64,000 nucleotides of DNA from Phycisphaerae bacterium (lineage in GTDB: Bacteria > Planctomycetota > Phycisphaerae > Tepidisphaerales > Tepidisphaeraceae), in contig JAICIO010000019.1 of the NCBI GenBank assembly GCA_025924315.1, positions 1 through 64,000 on the forward strand, given 5' to 3'. A program made the position numbers and the translations under genes. Shown here piece by piece: positions 22,442-42,076 of the stretch (its first letter is position 1; each line of letters begins with the position of its first letter). The notes beneath the pieces are model-generated. The model saw only the letters and a program-made list of their open reading frames with translations. It was not told the origin of the DNA and ran no database searches.

Positions 22442-22491
22442 ACGGTGGATAGGTCTAGGGTCGTTTGTATCCAAACTTACAGGGAGCCCAA

Positions 22492-22944
22492 ATGGATCAA
22501 GTAACCCTCTCATCGCCTCTTGGAACTCGATTCACCCGCAATCAGGCTGCACTTAGCGATCCCGCGTATCAGGCCTATCAACTCTTGCGGGTGGGTTTCA
22601 TTGCGGCGCCGATCATCGCGGGGGCCGACAAGTTCTTCCATTTGCTCGTCAACTGGGACAACTACTTGGCCCCCGTGGTCGATCGTGTCCTCGCTGGGCA
22701 CGGTCACGCCTTCATGCTCATCGTGGGCGTCATTGAGATCATCGCAGGCATCGGCGTAGCGCTTCGCCCACGGATCTTCTCATACGTCGTGGCGGTCTGG
22801 CTGCTCGGCATCATCGTGAACCTGCTGTTAATTCCCGCATCAAACCCGTTGCCGCACTATGACGTGGCGCTGCGAGACTTTGGTCTGTTGCTCGGCGCGT
22901 TGGCGCTGGGACGACTCAGCGGACGTTTTGCGCGGTCTGCGTGA
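22492..22944 (+). CDS. DoxX-like membrane protein (copy 1)
   Basis: A 150-residue protein with four membrane segments. It contains DKFFHLLVNWDNYLAP near residue 45, GHGHAFMLIVGVIEIIAG near 75 and a final MPHYD/LPHYDVALRD segment, all shared with its paralogue at 41627-42076 (about 70-75 percent identical by eye). DoxX-like proteins sit in the inner membrane near redox enzymes. A GGGAG site precedes the ATG at 22492. It is the first gene downstream of the SufR-like operator and is followed by AhpD-like and flavoprotein genes. Confidence 0.8.
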   Translation: MDQVTLSSPLGTRFTRNQAALSDPAYQAYQLLRVGFIAAPIIAGADKFFHLLVNWDNYLAPVVDRVLAGHGHAFMLIVGVIEIIAGIGVALRPRIFSYVVAVWLLGIIVNLLLIPASNPLPHYDVALRDFGLLLGALALGRLSGRFARSA

Positions 22945-25896: not shown

Positions 25897-26691
25897 ATGA
25901 ATGATCAAACCAACCCCGGGCGAGCGGTCATTCTCCGCATACGGCGCCAAGACCGGCCGGATACGTTGCCGCGCTGGGAAGAGTTTTCCGTGCCGCGCCG
26001 GCCGAACATGAATGTGATTGCCTGCCTTCAATTCATCGCCGCCAACCCTCTCACCACGGATGGAACGAAGACGACTCCTGTTGTCTATGACAGCGGCTGT
26101 TTGGAAGAGGTGTGCGGCGCCTGCACGATGGTCATCAACGGCAAAGTGCGTCAGGCCTGTTCGGCGTTGGTGGACAAGCTCAGCGAACCGACCTCCGGCG
26201 CGGGCGCTGCCGGCGAGCCGATTACGCTCGAGCCGATGCGGAAATTCCCGATCGTCCGCGATCTGTCCGTCGATCGTCAGCGACTGTTTGACGACCTCGC
26301 GCGCGCGAAGTGCTGGGTCCCGATCGACGGTACGCATGATCTTGGTCCGGGACCGACCATCTCAGATGAATTGCAGGAAGAGCGCTATCCGCTGTCGCGC
26401 TGTATCAGCTGCGGCTGCTGCCTTGAAGCGTGTCCGCAATACACCCCAGCCAACCGCTTTGTGGGCGCTGCGATTTTTAGTCAGGTGAATTTATTCAACG
26501 TTCATCCGACTGGCAAAGCGCTGAAGGACGATCGGCTGGACGTGATGATGGGCGAGGGCGGCATTGCGGATTGCAGCAAGGCCGGCAATTGCGTGGTGGT
26601 TTGCCCGAAGGACTTGCCCAATCTGAAATCCATCGCAACGGTTGGCCGGCAAGCGACGCTGGCCGCCCTCAAGAACTTCTTCGGCGGATAG
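25897..26691 (+). CDS. orphan succinate dehydrogenase/fumarate reductase iron-sulfur subunit-like protein
   Basis: A 264-residue protein with the three Fe-S sites of SdhB/FrdB. A plant-type 2Fe-2S is visible in DSGCLEEVCGACTMVING followed by a fourth Cys 12 residues on. The C-terminal half has CISCGCCLEACPQY and CSKAGNCVVVCPKD. No flavoprotein (SdhA) or membrane subunit gene is nearby. The next gene begins five bases after the stop and encodes a cytochrome b-molybdopterin fusion, so this protein probably feeds or drains electrons for that enzyme. The start at 25897 follows GAGAAGG. Confidence 0.87.
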   Translation: MNDQTNPGRAVILRIRRQDRPDTLPRWEEFSVPRRPNMNVIACLQFIAANPLTTDGTKTTPVVYDSGCLEEVCGACTMVINGKVRQACSALVDKLSEPTSGAGAAGEPITLEPMRKFPIVRDLSVDRQRLFDDLARAKCWVPIDGTHDLGPGPTISDELQEERYPLSRCISCGCCLEACPQYTPANRFVGAAIFSQVNLFNVHPTGKALKDDRLDVMMGEGGIADCSKAGNCVVVCPKDLPNLKSIATVGRQATLAALKNFFGG

Positions 26692-26695
26692 GCGA

Positions 26696-28399
26696 GTGAC
26701 GGCACCAGCACATCTTCCGCCGACATCCGATGATAGGGCTCGGAGAAGTGATGCGCAGGTCGCGAGCGCATCCGCCATTGTTGCAACCTCGCCGCGCGTG
26801 CGGCTCTCGATCCTTTTGCCCCTGGTGTTGCCGATGGTTCTCGCGCTCATTGCGGCATACGTGCAATGGATGACGGTCGGCCTTCCCACGGTACCCGCGC
26901 CGCAGCAACTCACGCCCGAAACGGCGACTTTGCCCTATGGCTTTCCCGCTTGGATTGGAATCACCCACTACGTCAACCTTTTGTTCATGGTCCTGTTGGC
27001 CCGCAGCGGGTTGCAGATTCTCATGGATCATCCCAGGCTGTATTGGAACGTGCACTGCACTCCCGGGACGGAGTGGGTGCGCTTCACGCCGGTTGAGGTG
27101 CCTCTCGATCGACTGTACACCGCGAAGGATGATGCCCGGTATTTGAGCCCGTGGATCGGTCTTCCCGGTGGCCGGCATACGCTGGGGCTGGCGCGGCATT
27201 GGCACTTCGTGAGTGCTCTGTTCTGGGTGTTGAACGGCGCGGTTTATATCACGCTTCTATTCGCGACGAGCCATTGGCATCGCATCGTTCCGACCTCCTG
27301 GCGGATCATACCGGATGCCTGGGCGATGTTCGTTCACTACGCCACCTTCCATCTTCCGCCGGAACCCAATGGTTTCTATCAATACAATGCGCTACAGCAA
27401 CTGAGTTATTTCATCGTGATCTTCATCCTCGCGCCGCTGTCGATTCTGACCGGACCGGCAATGTCTCCAGCGCTGGTCAATCGTTTCGCCTGGTATCGCA
27501 AACTGCCCGGCAACCGGCAGGTCGGCCGGTCGATTCATTTTTTGTTGCTGTGCGCGTACGTCCTCTTCGTCATCGCGCACGTCTCGATGGTGTTCCTGAC
27601 CGGGTTCGTGCGCAACATGAACCACATCGTCATCGGTACGGACAACCTGCTGCGGTTCGGCATGTACATCGGCCTGAGCGGTTTGGTCATCCTGTTTCTG
27701 CTGAACGTGATGGCCAACTGGTCGACGTGGCTGTTCCCGCGCGCCGTTCAGCGCGTGGGTGACGCGCTCGTGAATCCCGTCCTGCGTCTGCTGCTCGCGC
27801 GCCACGCACCGCGGGCCGAGTACACGGTCGAAGACATCTCGCCGTTCATGTGGCCCAATGGAAAACTACCGACTTCCCAAGAATGGAAAGCGCTGGTCGC
27901 GAGAGGCTTCAAGGATTACCGGCTGAAGGTCTGCGGACTCGTCGAGAATCCCGTGGAATTGTCTTTGGAACAAATTCGGGCGATGAGCAAGCGCACTCAA
28001 ATCACGTTACACCACTGCATCCAGGGTTGGTCTGGCATCGCCCAGTGGGGCGGCGTGCCCGTGGCAGAGCTGATAAAGCTCGTGCGCCCCAAACCCAACG
28101 TCAGGGCAGTCGTCTTCTACTCCTTCGGCGAAGGGCTGGAGGGCGGTCAGTATTACGACAGCCACACGATCGAGAACGCCCGGCAACCCCAGACCTTGCT
28201 GGCGTACGAGATGAACTTCAAGCCGCTCACCGACGTCCACGGCGCGCCGCTGCGACTCCGTGTGGAGAACCAGCTCGGCTTCAAAATGGTCAAGTGGATC
28301 CAGGCGATTGAATTTGTGGCAGACTTCAAACACGTTTACCAAGGCGAAGGCGGCTACAACTCGGATCACGAGTTCTTCGACACCATGGCCGACATTTGA
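26696..28399 (+). CDS. cytochrome b-type membrane domain fused to a sulfite-oxidase-family molybdopterin domain
   Basis: A 567-residue protein. GTG at 26696, five bases after the iron-sulfur gene, is the likely start because the frame from there is translationally linked. The N-terminal 330 residues have four or more membrane helices with histidines suited to heme b (HYVNLLFMVLLARS, LARHWHFVSALFWV, SIHFLLLCAYVLFVIAHVSM). The C-terminal part matches the oxidoreductase molybdopterin-binding fold; the Moco cysteine is at about residue 441 in LHHCIQGWSG. It resembles a YedY/YedZ pair fused with the order reversed. The domain may face the periplasm. Substrate unknown. Confidence 0.85.
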   Translation: MTAPAHLPPTSDDRARRSDAQVASASAIVATSPRVRLSILLPLVLPMVLALIAAYVQWMTVGLPTVPAPQQLTPETATLPYGFPAWIGITHYVNLLFMVLLARSGLQILMDHPRLYWNVHCTPGTEWVRFTPVEVPLDRLYTAKDDARYLSPWIGLPGGRHTLGLARHWHFVSALFWVLNGAVYITLLFATSHWHRIVPTSWRIIPDAWAMFVHYATFHLPPEPNGFYQYNALQQLSYFIVIFILAPLSILTGPAMSPALVNRFAWYRKLPGNRQVGRSIHFLLLCAYVLFVIAHVSMVFLTGFVRNMNHIVIGTDNLLRFGMYIGLSGLVILFLLNVMANWSTWLFPRAVQRVGDALVNPVLRLLLARHAPRAEYTVEDISPFMWPNGKLPTSQEWKALVARGFKDYRLKVCGLVENPVELSLEQIRAMSKRTQITLHHCIQGWSGIAQWGGVPVAELIKLVRPKPNVRAVVFYSFGEGLEGGQYYDSHTIENARQPQTLLAYEMNFKPLTDVHGAPLRLRVENQLGFKMVKWIQAIEFVADFKHVYQGEGGYNSDHEFFDTMADI

Positions 28400-29640: not shown

Positions 29641-29736
29641 GCGCAATTGTCCCAGCAACCCGGAGCAGGCGTTGATTTCTGGATATAAAGGTCTAGAATT
29701 GGTTTAGCGTTGAGGCCTAAGGGCCGAGGAGTGCTC

Positions 29737-30921
29737 ATGCAGCGACTTGTTATCCGTGGATCTGTCGTCGCGTCCGTCTTCATCGCCGCGGCGATGCTGC
29801 TCCTTGCCGGTCGATTCATCGGGATTCGGCAGGATGCCGTCGCGTCGGTGCGCGGGGAGCATGGCTCTTCCGAGCGGGAACGAGCGCCTCTCGACGAGTT
29901 CGTTGCGAAGCTTCCGCCGAAATCAAGTCTCGGCGTGGTTCAGGGCGAGAAAACGATCGCGCCTGTGGTGCCGGCGCCGATTACGCGCGCCGAGAACAAG
30001 ATCGTTGAATACAAGCTGACCGTGCGGGAGACGAGCGCGAAGATCGCGCCAAATCTGACCTACAGTTCGCTCTGGAGCTTCGACGGGGTTGTGCCCGGCC
30101 CGGTGATGCGAGTGAAGGTTGGCGACGTGATTCGGTTCACGCTGGCCAACGATGCAAAGAGCGTCACCAACCACAACATCGATTTTCACTTCGTTTCGGG
30201 TGCGTGCGGTGGCTGTTGCGATACCACTGTTTCGCCGGGTGAGGCGCGGACAATCGAAACCCGCGCGTTGTATCCCGGATTGTTCATGTATCACTGCGCT
30301 TACAAGGAGAAGGGGAACATCGCCGCCGTGCACATTGCCAACGGGATGTACGGGTTTCTCATTGTGGATCCCGAGCTGCCTTTGCCGACCGTCGATCACG
30401 AATTCATTCTGGTCGAGAGCGAATTCTACGTGGAACGAGTGGGAAAGAACCTGGGCGCCTGCTCCTATTCGGATCTGGTTGCCGAGACGCCGACTCACTA
30501 TTTCTTCAACGGAAAATCCGCGGAGCTGAATCCTCCGCTCACGGTTGCGGTCAATGACCGCGTGCGATTGTACGTCGGCAAAGGCGGCGTAAACGGCTTC
30601 GCGGCGTTTCACGTGATCGGAGCGATATTCGACAAGGTCTACCCCGACGGCGGCACGCTCGATCCCCCGCGCGAGCACGGCATCCAGACCGTGACAGTGC
30701 CTTCGGGCGGCGCGGCCATCGTCGAATTCGTCACCCCCGTCCCCGGCACGCTGACCGCGGTCGATCACAATCTTTCGCGGGACTATTTCAAAGGGCTTGG
30801 GCAGGTGATCAACGTTGAGGGTTCGCCGAATCCCGAAATCTATCAGGTTGTCGGCCCTACTCCAGCAACATGCGCAGTCGAAAAAGTTGTGCCGAAATCT
30901 GTTCCACCACCGGCGCAATGA
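29737..30921 (+). CDS. nirK: copper-containing nitrite reductase (NirK-like)
   Basis: This 394-residue periplasmic enzyme reduces nitrite to NO in denitrification. A GAGGAG site precedes the ATG at 29737, and residues 8-30 form a signal anchor. Type 1 copper ligands: H146 (NHN), C187 and H199 with M204 (AVHIANGMYG). Type 2 ligands: H151 (IDFH), H186 (YHC) and H292 (FHVIG). D149 in IDFH matches the catalytic aspartate. Unusually, the loop after H151 carries C157, C160 and C161 (GACGGCC) where normal NirK has glycines and alanines. It is 16 bp upstream of a hemerythrin gene. A simple multicopper oxidase is less likely. Confidence 0.87.
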   Translation: MQRLVIRGSVVASVFIAAAMLLLAGRFIGIRQDAVASVRGEHGSSERERAPLDEFVAKLPPKSSLGVVQGEKTIAPVVPAPITRAENKIVEYKLTVRETSAKIAPNLTYSSLWSFDGVVPGPVMRVKVGDVIRFTLANDAKSVTNHNIDFHFVSGACGGCCDTTVSPGEARTIETRALYPGLFMYHCAYKEKGNIAAVHIANGMYGFLIVDPELPLPTVDHEFILVESEFYVERVGKNLGACSYSDLVAETPTHYFFNGKSAELNPPLTVAVNDRVRLYVGKGGVNGFAAFHVIGAIFDKVYPDGGTLDPPREHGIQTVTVPSGGAAIVEFVTPVPGTLTAVDHNLSRDYFKGLGQVINVEGSPNPEIYQVVGPTPATCAVEKVVPKSVPPPAQ

Positions 30922-30937
30922 CACAAAGGAGTCGATC

Positions 30938-31768
30938 ATGCCCGTTCAACTTGGCGCAGCACCCGCACACGGATTCGATGAGCCATTGGGCTTACTCGGC
31001 GATTGCCACCGCCGTATCGAGAATTTCCTCTCGATCCTGCAGAAGGTTGAAGGATCGGCCGGCGAAGCGCTCGATCAACCACAACGACAGGCCGTCGAAA
31101 CAGCCCTGACCTATTTCCGCACGGCCGCGCCTCGACACAACGAGGACGAAGAACGGTCCCTCTTCCCATTGCTGCGAAATCGCTCCGAGCCGCTCGTCCG
31201 CCAAGCGATCGAGATCATTGACTCGCTCGAGGCGGATCATGCCGTGGCCGCGCCTGCGCACCGCGAAGTGGATCGCTTGTATCAAACGTGGATGGACGCG
31301 GGGCATCTGGCAAGCCGCGATCGAGCGAAGCTCAGTCTTCTGCTCGACGAGCTCGTTCAGATGTACCAGAGGCACATTCAAATCGAAGACGAGAGTATTT
31401 TTCCCCTGGCCGCCCAACTGCTCAATGCACAGCAGCGTGGCCGCCTGGGGAACGAAATGGCCAAACGTCGCGGCATCAGCGGCGCGGCTTCCCTCAAACC
31501 CAATGGAGTTTCAACCATGTCCGCAAAGCACACGATTGACGTTCGTTCGATCCCCGGTCCGCAGCGGCATCCTCTCATCTTTCAAACCTTTGAAGGGCTT
31601 GCGATCGGCGAAGCGCTGGAACTGATTAACGATCACGATCCATTCCCATTGCACAACCAGTTCAATTTCATGAAACGCGGGCAGTTTGCCTGGGAATACC
31701 TCGAGCAAGGCCCCGAGCTCTGGCGCGTGAAAATCAGTCGAATTGCCGCGCAGCCTGTGAAGGTGTGA
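30938..31768 (+). CDS. hemerythrin HHE domain fused to DUF2249
   Basis: A 276-residue cytoplasmic protein. AAAGGAG precedes the ATG at 30938. Residues 18-165 form a hemerythrin-like four-helix bundle with iron-ligand histidines and acids (GDCHRRIENF, HNEDEERSLFP, SLEADHAVAAPAHREVD, YQRHIQIEDESIFPL). After a linker a DUF2249 domain occupies about 195-276 (starts IDVRSIPGPQRHP, ends YLEQGPELWRVKISRI). This pairing is known in proteins that bind O2 or NO. Its position directly after nirK suggests it handles NO made by that enzyme. Confidence 0.9.
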   Translation: MPVQLGAAPAHGFDEPLGLLGDCHRRIENFLSILQKVEGSAGEALDQPQRQAVETALTYFRTAAPRHNEDEERSLFPLLRNRSEPLVRQAIEIIDSLEADHAVAAPAHREVDRLYQTWMDAGHLASRDRAKLSLLLDELVQMYQRHIQIEDESIFPLAAQLLNAQQRGRLGNEMAKRRGISGAASLKPNGVSTMSAKHTIDVRSIPGPQRHPLIFQTFEGLAIGEALELINDHDPFPLHNQFNFMKRGQFAWEYLEQGPELWRVKISRIAAQPVKV

Positions 31769-34308: not shown

Positions 34309-34362
34309 TCAGATTGACGCGCCTCCACTCAACATCCGCCGCGGTTCGAGTTGTTCGATCAT
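34309..34362 (-). pseudogene. LEPR leader stub (second copy)
   Basis: A 17-codon frame starting at 34362 reads MIEQLEPRRMLSGGASI and then stops. It is the N-terminus of a LEPR-type exported protein with no body. It overlaps, in another frame, the codons leading into the zinc-ribbon gene. This looks like a recombination scar joining a duplicated start cassette to an unrelated gene. Confidence 0.65.
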
Positions 34363-34427
34363 CCGGCCCCATTTGGTGAAAGCCCCATCCGGTCCCGCGA
34401 TTATGCCGCGAGCGAGGGAAGTTGTCC
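34332..34427. repeat. direct repeat copy B of the LEPR start cassette
   Basis: Near-identical to 33667-33762 over about 95 bp, including the TTTGGTGAAAGCCCCATCCG stretch upstream of the ATG. The two copies bracket the zinc-ribbon membrane protein gene. Confidence 0.8.
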
Positions 34428-34619
34428 AAATGTTCTTCGCGACTACTCCGCCACTCTCGTCGTTCCGCATGCCGGGATAAGCGGTCGCCACCGGACTCTC
34501 GCTGCAGAGTTTCGTCGCTCAAGCAACTCGAACATGACTTGCGAGGAGAATCGCATCCCGTTCCCAACGGCGACTCGCCGTGAAAGGCTGTTGGCGGATA
34601 AGCAGAAGGCTCGACGCGT

Positions 34620-35075
34620 TCACGCGCCGATGCGGGTGCGGCGACGGCGCGTGGGGCCGTCGCAAAGCGGTTGGTGGCCCGCGGGTGTGACGGCAAGCTC
34701 GGCGATGGTTGTCTTCTTGAACGCGTCTTCGACCATCGCGATCGCCTGGTCGAGCCGGCGGTGCAAGGGGCAGAGATTGACGCCATGGCCTTTGATCCCG
34801 AGTGGACACGAAGTGATCCGCTGGATGGGATCGACGGCCTGAATCGCGTCGAAGACGGTGATCTCCCGGGCGGAACGCGCCAGCACCGATCCGCCTTGCG
34901 GTCCGCGCTGTGAACGAACGAGCTCGGCCAGCGCGAGGTTGCGCAGAACTTTGGCGAGATAACCTTCGGGAACGCGAGTGGCCTCGGCGATTTGCGAAAT
35001 CGTTGCCTGCTTCCCGTCGAGGCTGGCGAGATAGACCATCACGCGGAGCGCATATTCGGATGTTTGTGAAAGCAT
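34620..35075 (-). CDS. Rrf2-family transcriptional regulator (NsrR/IscR-like)
   Basis: A 151-residue regulator. The winged helix is clear: MLSQTSEYALRVMVYLAS, then ISQIAEATRVPEGYLAKVL and RSQRGPQGGSVLAR. NsrR and IscR hold an Fe-S cluster with three cysteines; here only two are seen, in SCPLGIKGHGVNLCPLHRR, with histidines nearby that could complete the site. It diverges from the NnrS-like gene across an 85-bp gap, which fits an NO-responsive repressor of that gene. The start at 35075 matches family N-termini; a GTG at 35093 would add six residues. Confidence 0.85.
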   Translation of the reverse strand: MLSQTSEYALRVMVYLASLDGKQATISQIAEATRVPEGYLAKVLRNLALAELVRSQRGPQGGSVLARSAREITVFDAIQAVDPIQRITSCPLGIKGHGVNLCPLHRRLDQAIAMVEDAFKKTTIAELAVTPAGHQPLCDGPTRRRRTRIGA

Positions 35076-35160
35076 TCTCCACGATGATAGCACATTCTGG
35101 ACCTTGATATCGGAATAGGGCGGTCTTTACGATGTTGCGCGATTCGGACGCTCGAACACG

Positions 35161-36852
35161 ATGGCATCGTTGTCGTACATCTCGCCGGACCAAACCGTGC
35201 GACAAGTCGCAAGCGCATTCCCCGCGTGTGCCGAGCTGTTGGAACGCTGGCCCGGCGCGCGGCGGGATGATCGATGGACGCTCCAACAACTCAGTGCGTT
35301 TGCGCGTCAAGTGGGCGTGGAGGAACAATTGTTGCTTCAGGAGCTTGCCGACGCGGCGGGCGTGCCCTTGCGATCCCATCTCGACGCATCGCGACGAGCG
35401 CGTTCACCTTTACCGTTGATCTTTACAGCGTTGATTGTCGGGATCAGTCTGGGCACAGCGTTCGGCGTTGGATTGCTGTGGCGCATTGCGATGGGCGGCG
35501 GTTACGGAGTGGTGTCCGGCGCCAGCATTCATGTGCATGGGCTGGCGCAGCTTTGGGGTTGGATGGCGCTGTTCATCTTCGCCGTGGCAGCGCATCTGCT
35601 GCGCCAGAATACGACACGGCCCGCGCCGCGATGGATGGAATGGCTCGCCGCGGGGTTCATACTCATCGGGCTTTTCGCTTTTTTCGCGGGACTGAATGAG
35701 CGCGTGCGCGCGTTCATACCCGGCATCGACATCGCGGGCTCGGGCCTGCTGCTTGTGGCGGCGATCCTGTTCGGCGCCGGGCTTGCATGGTCGCTCAGTG
35801 GAGCAGCAAAAAGCCAGCGCCGGCACGGGTTGATTTTTCTGATCGCGTGGCTGTGGATCTGGGCAGGTACGGACCTTTTCCTCCGCATCCATTACGAAAA
35901 CACGCCCGTGCTTCCCGACTCGGCGCGTCCGCTCCTGATCGCTCTGCCGGTGCTGGGCCTCGCGACCAACGCCATTTACGGCTTTGGCATCCGACTGATT
36001 CCGGGACTTTTGAACATTGGTCGGCTGCGCTCCCGATGGTTTGGTCCTGGGCTCTTACTGCATAACGCGGGCTTGTGTCTGTTCCTGATTCCGCTTCGCA
36101 CCTCTCAGATCGTCGGCGCTGTTTCCATGTTCGCAGGCGCAATATTTTATCTGATCGGGATGGATGGGCTGCGAAGCAAACCGTCGCGTCCGATTTACGG
36201 AATTGATCCGCGCGGCCATATCCCGATCCGCGTCGCGTTCTTCTGGCTCGTGTGCGGGCTGGCGATGATCGTGGCGCAGCAGTTCCACCCGGAGTGGCCG
36301 CACGCATACAGTGGCGCGTGGCGTCATGCACTTACCGTCGGGTTCATCATGACGATGATCCTGGGCGTCGGATATCGAATGATCCCGATTTTCATCAGGC
36401 AGCCGCTGGCTTCGACGCGGCTGATGCTGGTTTCGGCGATGCTGATCATCGTCGGCAATGCCGGACGCGTCACACTGGAATTGCTGACCATCGGCGGTTG
36501 GACGTGGAGTTTTCGCCTGATGGGCATCACCGGTGTGCTGGAACTGGCCGCGCTGATCTTGTTCGCCATCAACATTGCGCTGACGGGATGGCTGCGCCGG
36601 CGCGTTTATGTGGGCACTTCGCCGCTCACGCCAAAAACGCGCGTTCAGGAAGCCGTCAACGTTCGTCCCGAGATCCAGGATTGCCTGCGCGCGCTGGGCA
36701 TCACGATGTTCGACACCGCGCCGTTCATTGCGCCATCGATGACCTTCGGCGCGCTGGCGCTGGCGTCGGGGATGACGCCGCGGCAGTTGCTCAACGCGCT
36801 GCGCGAATCATCGTCGGACGCTTCGCTTGCGCCTCGCGCGGTCTGCACTTAG
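35161..36852 (+). CDS. NnrS-like heme/copper membrane protein flanked by DUF1858-like domains
   Basis: A 563-residue inner-membrane protein with about twelve helices between residues 80 and 490. Conserved histidines and an HxH motif (ASIHVHGLAQLWGW), plus GFGIRLIPGLLNI and HALTVGFIMTMILGVGYRM, match NnrS, which counters nitrosative stress and protects metabolism from NO. The N-terminus (ISPDQTVRQVASAFPACAEL) and C-terminus (DTAPFIAPSMTFGALALASG) each resemble a DUF1858/ScdA-N domain, known from the iron-sulfur repair protein ScdA/YtfE and related proteins. The gene diverges from an Rrf2 regulator. Confidence 0.82.
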   Translation: MASLSYISPDQTVRQVASAFPACAELLERWPGARRDDRWTLQQLSAFARQVGVEEQLLLQELADAAGVPLRSHLDASRRARSPLPLIFTALIVGISLGTAFGVGLLWRIAMGGGYGVVSGASIHVHGLAQLWGWMALFIFAVAAHLLRQNTTRPAPRWMEWLAAGFILIGLFAFFAGLNERVRAFIPGIDIAGSGLLLVAAILFGAGLAWSLSGAAKSQRRHGLIFLIAWLWIWAGTDLFLRIHYENTPVLPDSARPLLIALPVLGLATNAIYGFGIRLIPGLLNIGRLRSRWFGPGLLLHNAGLCLFLIPLRTSQIVGAVSMFAGAIFYLIGMDGLRSKPSRPIYGIDPRGHIPIRVAFFWLVCGLAMIVAQQFHPEWPHAYSGAWRHALTVGFIMTMILGVGYRMIPIFIRQPLASTRLMLVSAMLIIVGNAGRVTLELLTIGGWTWSFRLMGITGVLELAALILFAINIALTGWLRRRVYVGTSPLTPKTRVQEAVNVRPEIQDCLRALGITMFDTAPFIAPSMTFGALALASGMTPRQLLNALRESSSDASLAPRAVCT

Positions 36853-37259
36853 GATTCGCGGCGCCGGCTCGTCGGAGTTCGCATGATCGGTGCGCCCGAA
36901 TACTTCGGTGATTAAGGACACCGGCTAACGACCTCGACGAGGTAATCCTGCGCTTGCTGCATCAACTCGCGATCCACGGCGTCGTCGTAGCGCCAAAACT
37001 CGCATGATGTGACGAGCTGCGGCCGTGCCGACGGGCGATGCTCAGTGCCATCCGCAGCGCCTGCTTGGCGAATCCTGAGCCGGCGAAAGGGACAAGTATG
37101 GATCGGTATCGACTCGGCACGACTCATCATTTTGGCGGCGGCGATTTCAGTACGATCGCAAAACCGCACATTGGCGTAGATTGTCACGCGGACATTAAGG
37201 GATTGTGTCGCACGAGCTGCGCGCATTGAATGTTGTGCACTCCGCGAATGGGAGCCCGA
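36853..37259. other. intergenic gap without a recognised gene
   Basis: About 400 bp between the NnrS-like gene and the DsbA-NhaA gene. A minus-strand open frame covers most of it, but its composition and sequence resemble no family I know. It could include a short gene remnant whose last 25 codons read RYDDAVDRELMQQAQDYLVE. No clear promoter, tRNA or repeat was found. Confidence 0.4.
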
Positions 37260-39122
37260 ATGACTTTGATGCCGGCAGTTGACCTGAAGCGCGATCACGT
37301 GCTGGGAAATCCCGATGCCGAGATGACGCTCGTCCAATACGGCAGTTACGCGTGCACTCGCTGTCATGCTGTTCATGAAGTCGTTGAAGGTCTACGCAGC
37401 CGGTTCGGGAATCGAATGCGGTACGTGTTTCGTCACGCGCCAGTACACGGCAGCGAACAGGCTCTCCGCGCTGCGGAACTGGCGGAATACGCCGGAGAAA
37501 CGGCGGGGAAGTTCTGGCAAGTTCACGAAGCTCTGATGGAACGTGGGCCGATGTTCGCGGACGGAGACTTTGGTCAGATCGCGCGTGATTTCGACCTGCC
37601 GCGCGACGTCGACCACGAGCCAGCGTTTGTATCGGCTCAAGCCCGCGTGCGTGAGGACGTTGACAGCGCAGGCCGCAGCGGCGCGAAAGTGACGCCAACC
37701 TTTTTCATCAATGGTCGCCGGTATGAAGGCACCTGGGACGAAAGCTCGCTGGCCGACGCGATGCTCGGCTCTCTTGGTCACCGGATTCAATCGGCCGCGT
37801 TCGAGTTCGTCCGCTGGGGACCGGCGTCGGGCTTGCTCCTGGGGCTCGCAACCGTGCTTGCGCTGGTGCTTAGCAACTCGCCGGTGAGAACATCTTTTTT
37901 CTCGTGGTGGAACACCACGCTGGCATTCCATTGGGGTGCATCGTCGATCGCTCTGTCGCTTGTGGACTGGGTGAATCATGGTCTGCTGACAATCTTCTTT
38001 GTTGTCGTTGGGCTCGAGATCAAGCGTGAGTTCACGGTCGGACACCTCTCGAATTTTCGATCCGGCGCACTTCCGGTAGTCGCCGCTCTTGGCGGAATCA
38101 TTTTGCCTGCAGTCATTTATGCACTCATCGCGCCGGCCGGGGTGAGACACGGGTGGGGGATTCCCATCGGCACCGATACGGCGTTCGCGGTCGCATTGAT
38201 CGTGTTGCTTCGCGACCGGGTGCCCGTCGAATTGCGCGTCTTTCTGACGGCTGCCGTCATCATCGATGACATCGTGGCGATCGTAGTCATCGCACTGTTT
38301 TACAGCGGCCAGATCAGCGGTGTTTACCTCGTCGCCGGCGGCGTGCTCACCGCGTTGCTGGTTGGCCTTAACCGCGCCGGCGTGTACGCCACGCTGCCGT
38401 ACGCCATCGGTGGAATCGTTCTTTGGTTCGTCCTGCACGAAGCCGGCTTGCACGCGACGCTTGCGGGCGTGATCCTCGCGTTGGTCATCCCCACGCGCCC
38501 ACCGGCAAACCTCAATGCGCTGCTGGCACAGGCAACGGCGGTGATCAAACTGGAACAACGCCACACCGGTGAGCCGATGCGACCCGGTCCATCTGAGCCG
38601 GCGTTGCAAGCGCTGGATGCCATTCACGCGAGGATCGACTCGCCCGCGGACAAGCTCTTGAGGACAGTCGAGCCGTGGTCGAGCTACGTCGTGCTTCCAA
38701 TCTTCGCGCTGGCGAATGCCGGCGTCACCTGGTCGTCCGAAGCGTTCCGCGGGAATGGCCGGTTGATGAGCGCGATCGTTGTGGGATTGGTTGTCGGAAA
38801 ATCGGTCGGCATTATTACGGCGGCGTGGCTTGCGGTGCGGATCCGCATCGCGGTAAAGCCGCAAGCGTATTCGTGGCGGCATTTATGCGGAGCGGGGGCG
38901 CTCGGTGGAATCGGTTTCACAATGTCACTGTTCATTGCGGGCGCGGCATTTCCGGACTCAACTGCGTATGCCGCTGCCAAAATCGCTATCTTTCTGGCCT
39001 CCATCATCGCTGGCACTTTGGGCGTGCTGATCCTTTGGCCGAAGCCTAAGAGCAATGGAGCAGGCCATCAGTCCGCCAGCGATTTGCGCGCGGCATCACA
39101 TACTGCGACGACGGCTGGATGA
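37260..39122 (+). CDS. nhaA: DsbA-like thioredoxin domain fused to NhaA Na+/H+ antiporter
   Basis: A 620-residue protein. GGGAG lies upstream of the ATG at 37260. Residues 5-175 form a DsbA-like domain with a CTRC active site at 32-35 and a cis-proline region ([15 protein letters not shown]). Residues 180-610 form NhaA, including VVGLEIKRE, the [13 protein letters not shown] aspartate and the paired aspartates in [11 protein letters not shown] that carry Na+ and H+. The fusion is known in some bacteria and could link antiport to thiol redox state. The 3' end overlaps the convergent NhaR-like gene by 55 bp. Confidence 0.93.
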
Positions 39123-41488: not shown

Positions 41489-41529
41489 GATCGCTCCTTT
41501 GGGGAGACGTGTATCCGGATGCTGATTCA

Positions 41530-41612
41530 TGAGATATGCAATATGCAAAATATGCACGGCAGACGCGATGGCACGCAGCTTGTGCGCATTTTATGGATAG
41601 GCCTAATTTCTC
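41530..41612 (+). promoter_or_regulatory. direct repeats and promoter-like segment before DoxX-like copy 2
   Basis: ATATGCA occurs three times in 23 bases (41534-41556). Further on, TTATGGATAGGCCTAATTT resembles GGTGGATAGGTCTAGGG upstream of DoxX-like copy 1. The shared GGATAGGYCTA may be part of a common promoter element. No perfect palindrome is found here, unlike copy 1. Confidence 0.4.
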
Positions 41613-41626
41613 CAACCGGAGTGTTT

Positions 41627-42076
41627 ATGTCCCAGGCAATTCACCCATCCGCCGGATTTAGCGGCGATTCCAGTCACAGCCATGCCAATCTGCATGACCC
41701 GACGTATCAGGCGTACCAACTCCTGCATGTGGCGTTCACCGTCGCGCCGATCCTCGCGGGGGTCGACAAGTTCTTTCACCTGCTGGTGAACTGGGACAAT
41801 TACCTTGCCCCGGTTGTGAACAACATTCTCGGTGGTCACGGCCATGCGTTCATGCTGATCGTCGGCGTGATCGAGATCGTCGCGGGCATCGGAGTAGCCC
41901 TTTGGCCGAAGGTGTTCTCCTACATCGTCGCGATTTGGCTGCTCGGTATCATCATCAATCTGCTGCTGATCCCGGCTTCCAGCACGATGCCGCACTACGA
42001 TGTGGCCCTGCGCGATCTGGGCCTTTGCCTCGGGGCGCTTGCGCTCGGCCGATTGAGCGAGGTTGTGACACGATAG
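41627..42076 (+). CDS. DoxX-like membrane protein (copy 2)
   Basis: A 149-residue four-helix membrane protein and close paralogue of the product at 22492-22944; the identical cores include KFFHLLVNWDNYLAPVV, GHGHAFMLIVGVIEI and NLLLIPAS. The start at 41627 has CGGAGTG upstream and matches the length of copy 1. Instead of AhpD and a flavoprotein, it is followed by a PQQ-dehydrogenase-like lipoprotein and a cytochrome c, so the two copies serve different redox sets. Confidence 0.8.
   Translation: MSQAIHPSAGFSGDSSHSHANLHDPTYQAYQLLHVAFTVAPILAGVDKFFHLLVNWDNYLAPVVNNILGGHGHAFMLIVGVIEIVAGIGVALWPKVFSYIVAIWLLGIIINLLLIPASSTMPHYDVALRDLGLCLGALALGRLSEVVTR

Follow-up and report, generated by a model that had tools for sequence, protein, structure and literature searches.

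We know of no settled mechanism for NnrS. The NnrS of Vibrio cholerae is reported to shield the iron pool from dinitrosyl complexes and not to remove NO (PMC9246220). In Bradyrhizobium a stand-alone DUF1858 gene lies near nnrR/nirK and is strongly NnrR-dependent (PMC6710368), and a Thermus nitrate-respiration protein carries DUF1858 together with DUF2249 (PMC6282519). Titles and abstracts of the open-access literature yielded no paper on a DUF1858-NnrS-DUF1858 family, no description of the NnrS of anammox bacteria and no account of NnrS as an oxidase relative.

We analysed a window of 64,000 nucleotides from a Phycisphaerae bacterium (source genome 6.57 Mb, 96.8% complete), computing architecture, predicted fold, heme-ligand positions, motif conservation and gene links. 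An ORF at 35161..36852 (+) encodes a 563-aa membrane protein with an NnrS-like core, predicted to have the heme-copper-oxidase fold, between two DUF1858-like end domains. Judged by its sequence, this protein is a divergent copy of a broad DUF1858-NnrS-DUF1858 family.

The NnrS-like protein and its family

The NnrS profile (PF05940) matched the window protein with 21.3 bits (E 2e-4), which is under the 28-bit Pfam gathering cut-off, while NnrS was found in 17/17 members of the family alignment (best 4e-17). The relation to NnrS claimed by the sequence-only reading is therefore upheld by a sub-threshold match together with the alignment. The window protein shares with NnrS the weak core profile match, the conserved helix-2 and helix-10 histidines and an NO-response gene context, and differs from it in scoring under the cut-off and in bearing two DUF1858-like end domains. 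The same genome encodes one paralog (contig C6), a clear NnrS (58.6 bits, above cut-off) with a DUF1858 domain at each end (66.7 and 29.3 bits; whole protein 87 bits), the second DUF1858 match being under the single-domain cut-off.

Orthologs with 55–64% identity were present in three same-family genomes (named records: Phycisphaerales MAGs SJ572, SJ207 and SJ194). More distant relatives occurred in 71/392 sampled phylum genomes, often two or more per genome, and the genome collection held 258 stretches encoding the family; a fusion unique to the window was rejected on these counts. Named relatives came from the anammox bacteria Brocadia, Kuenenia, Scalindua and Jettenia, which often carry the double-DUF1858 family in two copies per genome, and from Acidobacteria, Verrucomicrobia, Chloroflexi, Tectomicrobia and Omnitrophota. 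Homologs from anammox and other bacteria combine NnrS with a DUF1858 at each end, so the search for the same architecture in other genomes, proposed with the sequence-only reading, found it in the paralog and in many homologs.

The end domains occupy aa 1-76 (35161..35388, +) and aa 485-553 (36613..36819, +). A Pfam DUF1858 search of both ends, named beforehand as a check of the claim that each is DUF1858-like, gave zero matches to PF08984, an outcome that under this check speaks against the claim, and whole-protein Pfam scans of two window orthologs likewise did not detect DUF1858. In alignments the Cys-Gly-Gly motif was absent from both ends. Family HMMs trained without the window clade nevertheless scored the N-end at 27.2 bits (best decoy 8.5) and the divergent C-end at 14.4 bits (best decoy 7.2), with 3500 shuffles as decoys. 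By hhalign the N-ends gave E 1.2e-9 with 96% probability, and the C-ends, the weaker half, E 0.003 with 10% probability. Against PF08984 at E <= 1, 31/34 N-termini and 31/35 C-termini of a wider set matched; the non-matching termini are explained by the window clade, in which the first member was shown to score nothing. The AlphaFold2 model places N-end helices at 13-19, 21-27, 44-51 and 55-66, and those of the C-end lie between 495 and 553.

The family ends resemble DUF1858 / ScdA_N (PF08984, PF04405) in helical pattern and match its solved structures by profile (2fi0, 2k5e, 2k53, ScdA 9r7j). They differ in being attached to a membrane protein, one copy at either end, and in the loss of the CGG motif from the window clade. 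FastTree grouped the window clade (support 1.0) with L046, L050, L077 and L108 (0.956). Since L046 and L050 retain the GCGG motif, it was probably lost in the window lineage. As to DUF1858 at both ends, out-of-clade profiles, the paralog and the homologs speak for it, whereas Pfam finds neither end here; at the level of sequence profiles, we take the double-ended architecture to be real.

The core (aa 84-477; 35410..36591, +) was modelled by AlphaFold2 from a 33-sequence alignment (pLDDT 85) as twelve long helices, with a helical domain at each end of the protein. The best Foldseek matches were the cbb3 oxidase CcoN and the NO reductase NorB (E 8e-7 to 3e-4; TM about 0.5 on the query and 0.6 on the target), and the family profile aligned end to end with CcoN (3mk7, E 4.9e-5). 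The model and this alignment together point to a predicted 12-helix heme-copper-oxidase fold. A sequence match of the helix-2 region with CcoN helix 10 was set aside for the end-to-end profile alignment, given the internal repeats of the oxidase fold. Hits to myoglobin and to unrelated families of low score in the Pfam, PDB and profile searches were put down to chance.

H126 (TM2) and H389 (TM10) were invariant in 82/82 sequences and align in the profile alignment with CcoN H60 and H349, the low-spin heme ligands. One low-spin heme b is therefore probably kept at H126 / H389. In the window protein Trp387 occupies the heme b3 ligand position (CcoN H347), and Ala261 replaces a helix-6 His that 61/82 relatives retain. 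Read from these positions, the heme b3 and the greater part of the copper site appear to be lost, so the window protein probably does not work as an oxidase or an NO reductase. It shares with the heme-copper oxidases (cbb3 CcoN, NorB) the predicted 12-helix fold and the positions of the low-spin heme His pair, but is without the b3 ligand and most CuB ligands and has the extra end domains.

The Rrf2 regulator and the operator-like motif

An Rrf2-family gene lies divergent from the NnrS-like ORF at 34620..35075 (-), ending at 34620 with its most likely start at 35075 (PF02082, 102 bits); the divergent regulator described from the sequence is thus in place. The claim that it has only two cysteines was wrong: a direct count gave three, C89, C101 and C137 (numbered from the first residue of window:34620-35072:-), which also disposed of the idea of an odd two-cysteine Rrf2. 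The nearby histidines that had been noted were found, and both are conserved in the subclass: C89 and C101 flank H96, and H104 comes after C101. The signature C-x6-H-x4-C-P-L-H (CPLGIKGHGVNLCPLH in the window protein) was present in the window Rrf2 and in 29/29 phylum relatives read, and the tail Cys (PLC) was nearly invariant in an alignment of ten. From these sequences, the window Rrf2 is a member of a widespread, conserved planctomycete subclass in which three cysteines accompany two conserved histidines.

The arrangement C89, H96, C101, H104, C137 did not match the three-cysteine cluster motif of the NsrR/IscR type. The NsrR NCBIfam equivalog score was 57.7 against a cut-off of 182. The window Rrf2 thus resembles the NO sensor NsrR in family, in NO-gene neighbours and in a short inverted-repeat operator-like motif. 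It differs in that the middle cysteine is replaced by a nearby His and the third Cys is on the tail, in its operator-like motif, and in a score far under the NsrR cut-off. In the loci read, about eight regulators of the subclass adjoin a gene with a protoglobin-typical start (two of these neighbours confirmed by Pfam) and one adjoins an Hcp gene; the neighbours of the remaining regulators there were not recognised as NO genes. Nothing on an Rrf2 with protoglobin was found in titles and abstracts of the open-access literature.

Comparison of promoter regions in the source genome gave a shared 16-bp motif, about TGGATRTCAAKGTCCA, with a fuller consensus of about WTTGGATRTCAAKGTCCAAT, which is roughly an inverted repeat ATTGGA-N8-TCCAAT. 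Candidate operators with 2 mismatches each lie between the Rrf2 and NnrS-like genes (CCGATATCAAGGTCCA; 35098..35113, -) and upstream of nirK (TGGATATAAAGGTCTA; 29680..29695, +). With up to 3 mismatches the genome contained 38 matches, against 5 for a reversed control. Among 36 matches examined in context at this threshold, 31 were inside ORFs (mechanical, longest-first calls). The five others comprised sites upstream of RIC, upstream of nirK, in the Rrf2/NnrS-like gap and in the gap between the paralog and an Rrf2 gene, all four exact or near matches, and the end of an unrelated ORF. These four local sites are not independent, because the motif was first noticed in the source genome. A check independent of this genome came from other genomes, where the motif was found upstream of 18/32 Rrf2 relatives (<=4 mismatches), mostly 30–80 bp from the start, although these genomes include relatives and are not independent of each other; in the same 32 upstream regions the reversed motif gave 0/32 and shuffled motifs 14/1600.

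Nitric oxide genes and other neighbours

The copper nitrite reductase gene (NirK-like; 29710..30921, +; likely start ATG 29737) scored 242 bits with TIGR02376 (E 7e-72), below the equivalog cut-off of 296. It is followed by a gene for a hemerythrin-DUF2249 protein (30938..31768, +; PF01814 56 bits, PF10006 96 bits), whose ORF runs from 30815 with a likely start at 30938, and two unrelated genes separate this from the Rrf2 gene. In the source genome, protoglobin, Hcp and globin gave no match, and a NorB-type NO reductase was not found among the four COX1 proteins checked, all of which are aa3-type. Therefore, among these types, there is no obvious reductase for the NO made by NirK.

Elsewhere in the family, RIC (ScdA_N-hemerythrin) genes lie near members at L003 (identified by Pfam), L054, L106, L109 and L117, nirK at L048 and L108, and hemerythrin at L077 and L117. 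Neither NO genes nor an Rrf2 gene were recognised beside the three closest orthologs (L043, L044 and L045, the last truncated by the end of its contig), so the linkage seen in the window is not shared by the rest of its clade. The proposed coupling of NO tolerance to Fe-S repair stands at the gene level, through the RIC neighbours and the motif at nirK, at the Rrf2/NnrS-like pair and at RIC. As a predicted regulon, NO defence coupled to iron repair is thus supported; the direct physical mechanism that had been suggested is not part of this support.

Several other features were seen. At the paralog locus (L003 5779-8107) two radical-SAM genes lie between the RIC and hemerythrin genes, with counterparts near family members at L106, L109, L117 and L120. 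A stretch ..DHPA.FGESPIRS.., which resembles a dispersed DNA repeat, recurs in several ORFs around the two NnrS loci (window about 33700 and 34351-34842; L003 12772-13056 and 13352-13693). The window also encodes a thioredoxin/DsbA-like domain fused to an NhaA Na+/H+ antiporter with a LysR gene adjoining (37230-39122), a cytochrome b561 fused to a sulfite-oxidase-type molybdopterin domain (26642-28396), and two small membrane proteins that resemble each other (AYQLL..DKFFHLLVNWDNYLAPVV) and lie about 19 kb apart (22465-22941 and 41519-42076).

Proposed role and alternatives

We consider it reasonably probable that the window protein is an oxidase-fold-derived DUF1858-NnrS-DUF1858 heme protein under NO-responsive Rrf2 control that protects iron and Fe-S; heme binding, NO sensing by Rrf2, repression and iron protection are the steps that we infer. 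The protein would be a 12-helix membrane protein descended from the heme-copper-oxidase fold, probably holding one low-spin heme b by H126 (helix 2) and H389 (helix 10), and by oxidase topology its helical ScdA_N/DUF1858 end domains would face the cytoplasm. Its expression is probably under an NO-responsive Rrf2 repressor of the planctomycete-wide subclass, a candidate operator of which also precedes nirK and the RIC iron-repair gene. By analogy with the NnrS of V. cholerae, the most likely role would be guarding the iron and Fe-S pool of the cell against NO made by NirK. The end domains may serve for docking, as relatives of the modules found in RIC-type repair proteins, and docking with RIC itself is speculative. 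In the simplest account, NO would induce a membrane heme protein that protects iron and carries end domains of the repair type.

The end domains could instead be degenerate relics on a plain NnrS-like membrane heme protein without docking function, a doubtful but credible reading. The CGG motif and Pfam detectability were lost in the window clade only, and the related sequences L077 and L108 apparently lack the N-terminal domain, as this reading would expect; yet both ends are still conserved inside the clade (67–70% mean column identity) and are mostly modelled by AlphaFold2 as ordered helices. An enzymatic role, in which the oxidase fold would hold an unusual active site and work as an NO reductase or NO dioxygenase in place of the missing NorB, appears improbable. 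The fold, whose best structure matches include NorB and cbb3, and a genome with nirK in which NorB, globin and Hcp were not found would fit such an enzyme, but Trp387 and Ala261 take the places of the b3 ligand and the helix-6 His, and NnrS is stated not itself to remove NO (PMC9246220).

The Rrf2 protein might sense iron or Fe-S status in a RirA/SUF-like manner, with the NO genes as secondary targets. The NCBIfam scores lean this way, RirA (66 bits) and the SUF regulator (64) exceeding NsrR (58), all far under cut-offs; however, where neighbours of the subclass were recognised, they are protoglobin, Hcp, RIC, nirK and NnrS, and 0/4 promoter sites of the motif in the source genome are at an iron-uptake or SUF gene, which leaves this alternative rather unlikely. 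A heme-copper-oxidase relative turned electron relay can also be imagined, in which quinol electrons would pass through the single low-spin heme to the cytoplasmic ScdA_N-type domains, to reduce or hand over NO-damaged iron. We hold this relay improbable; if true, RIC-type repair would be physically connected with the respiratory chain of the membrane.

Profile and predicted fold place the DUF1858-bearing NnrS relatives in the heme-copper-oxidase superfamily, as members that appear to have retained one heme site but not the catalytic site, which gives testable residues. The double DUF1858 fusion, present in anammox bacteria with their NO-based metabolism, would tie the NnrS family to iron repair, and the Rrf2 subclass with its operator-like motif makes up a predicted NO regulon across Planctomycetota.
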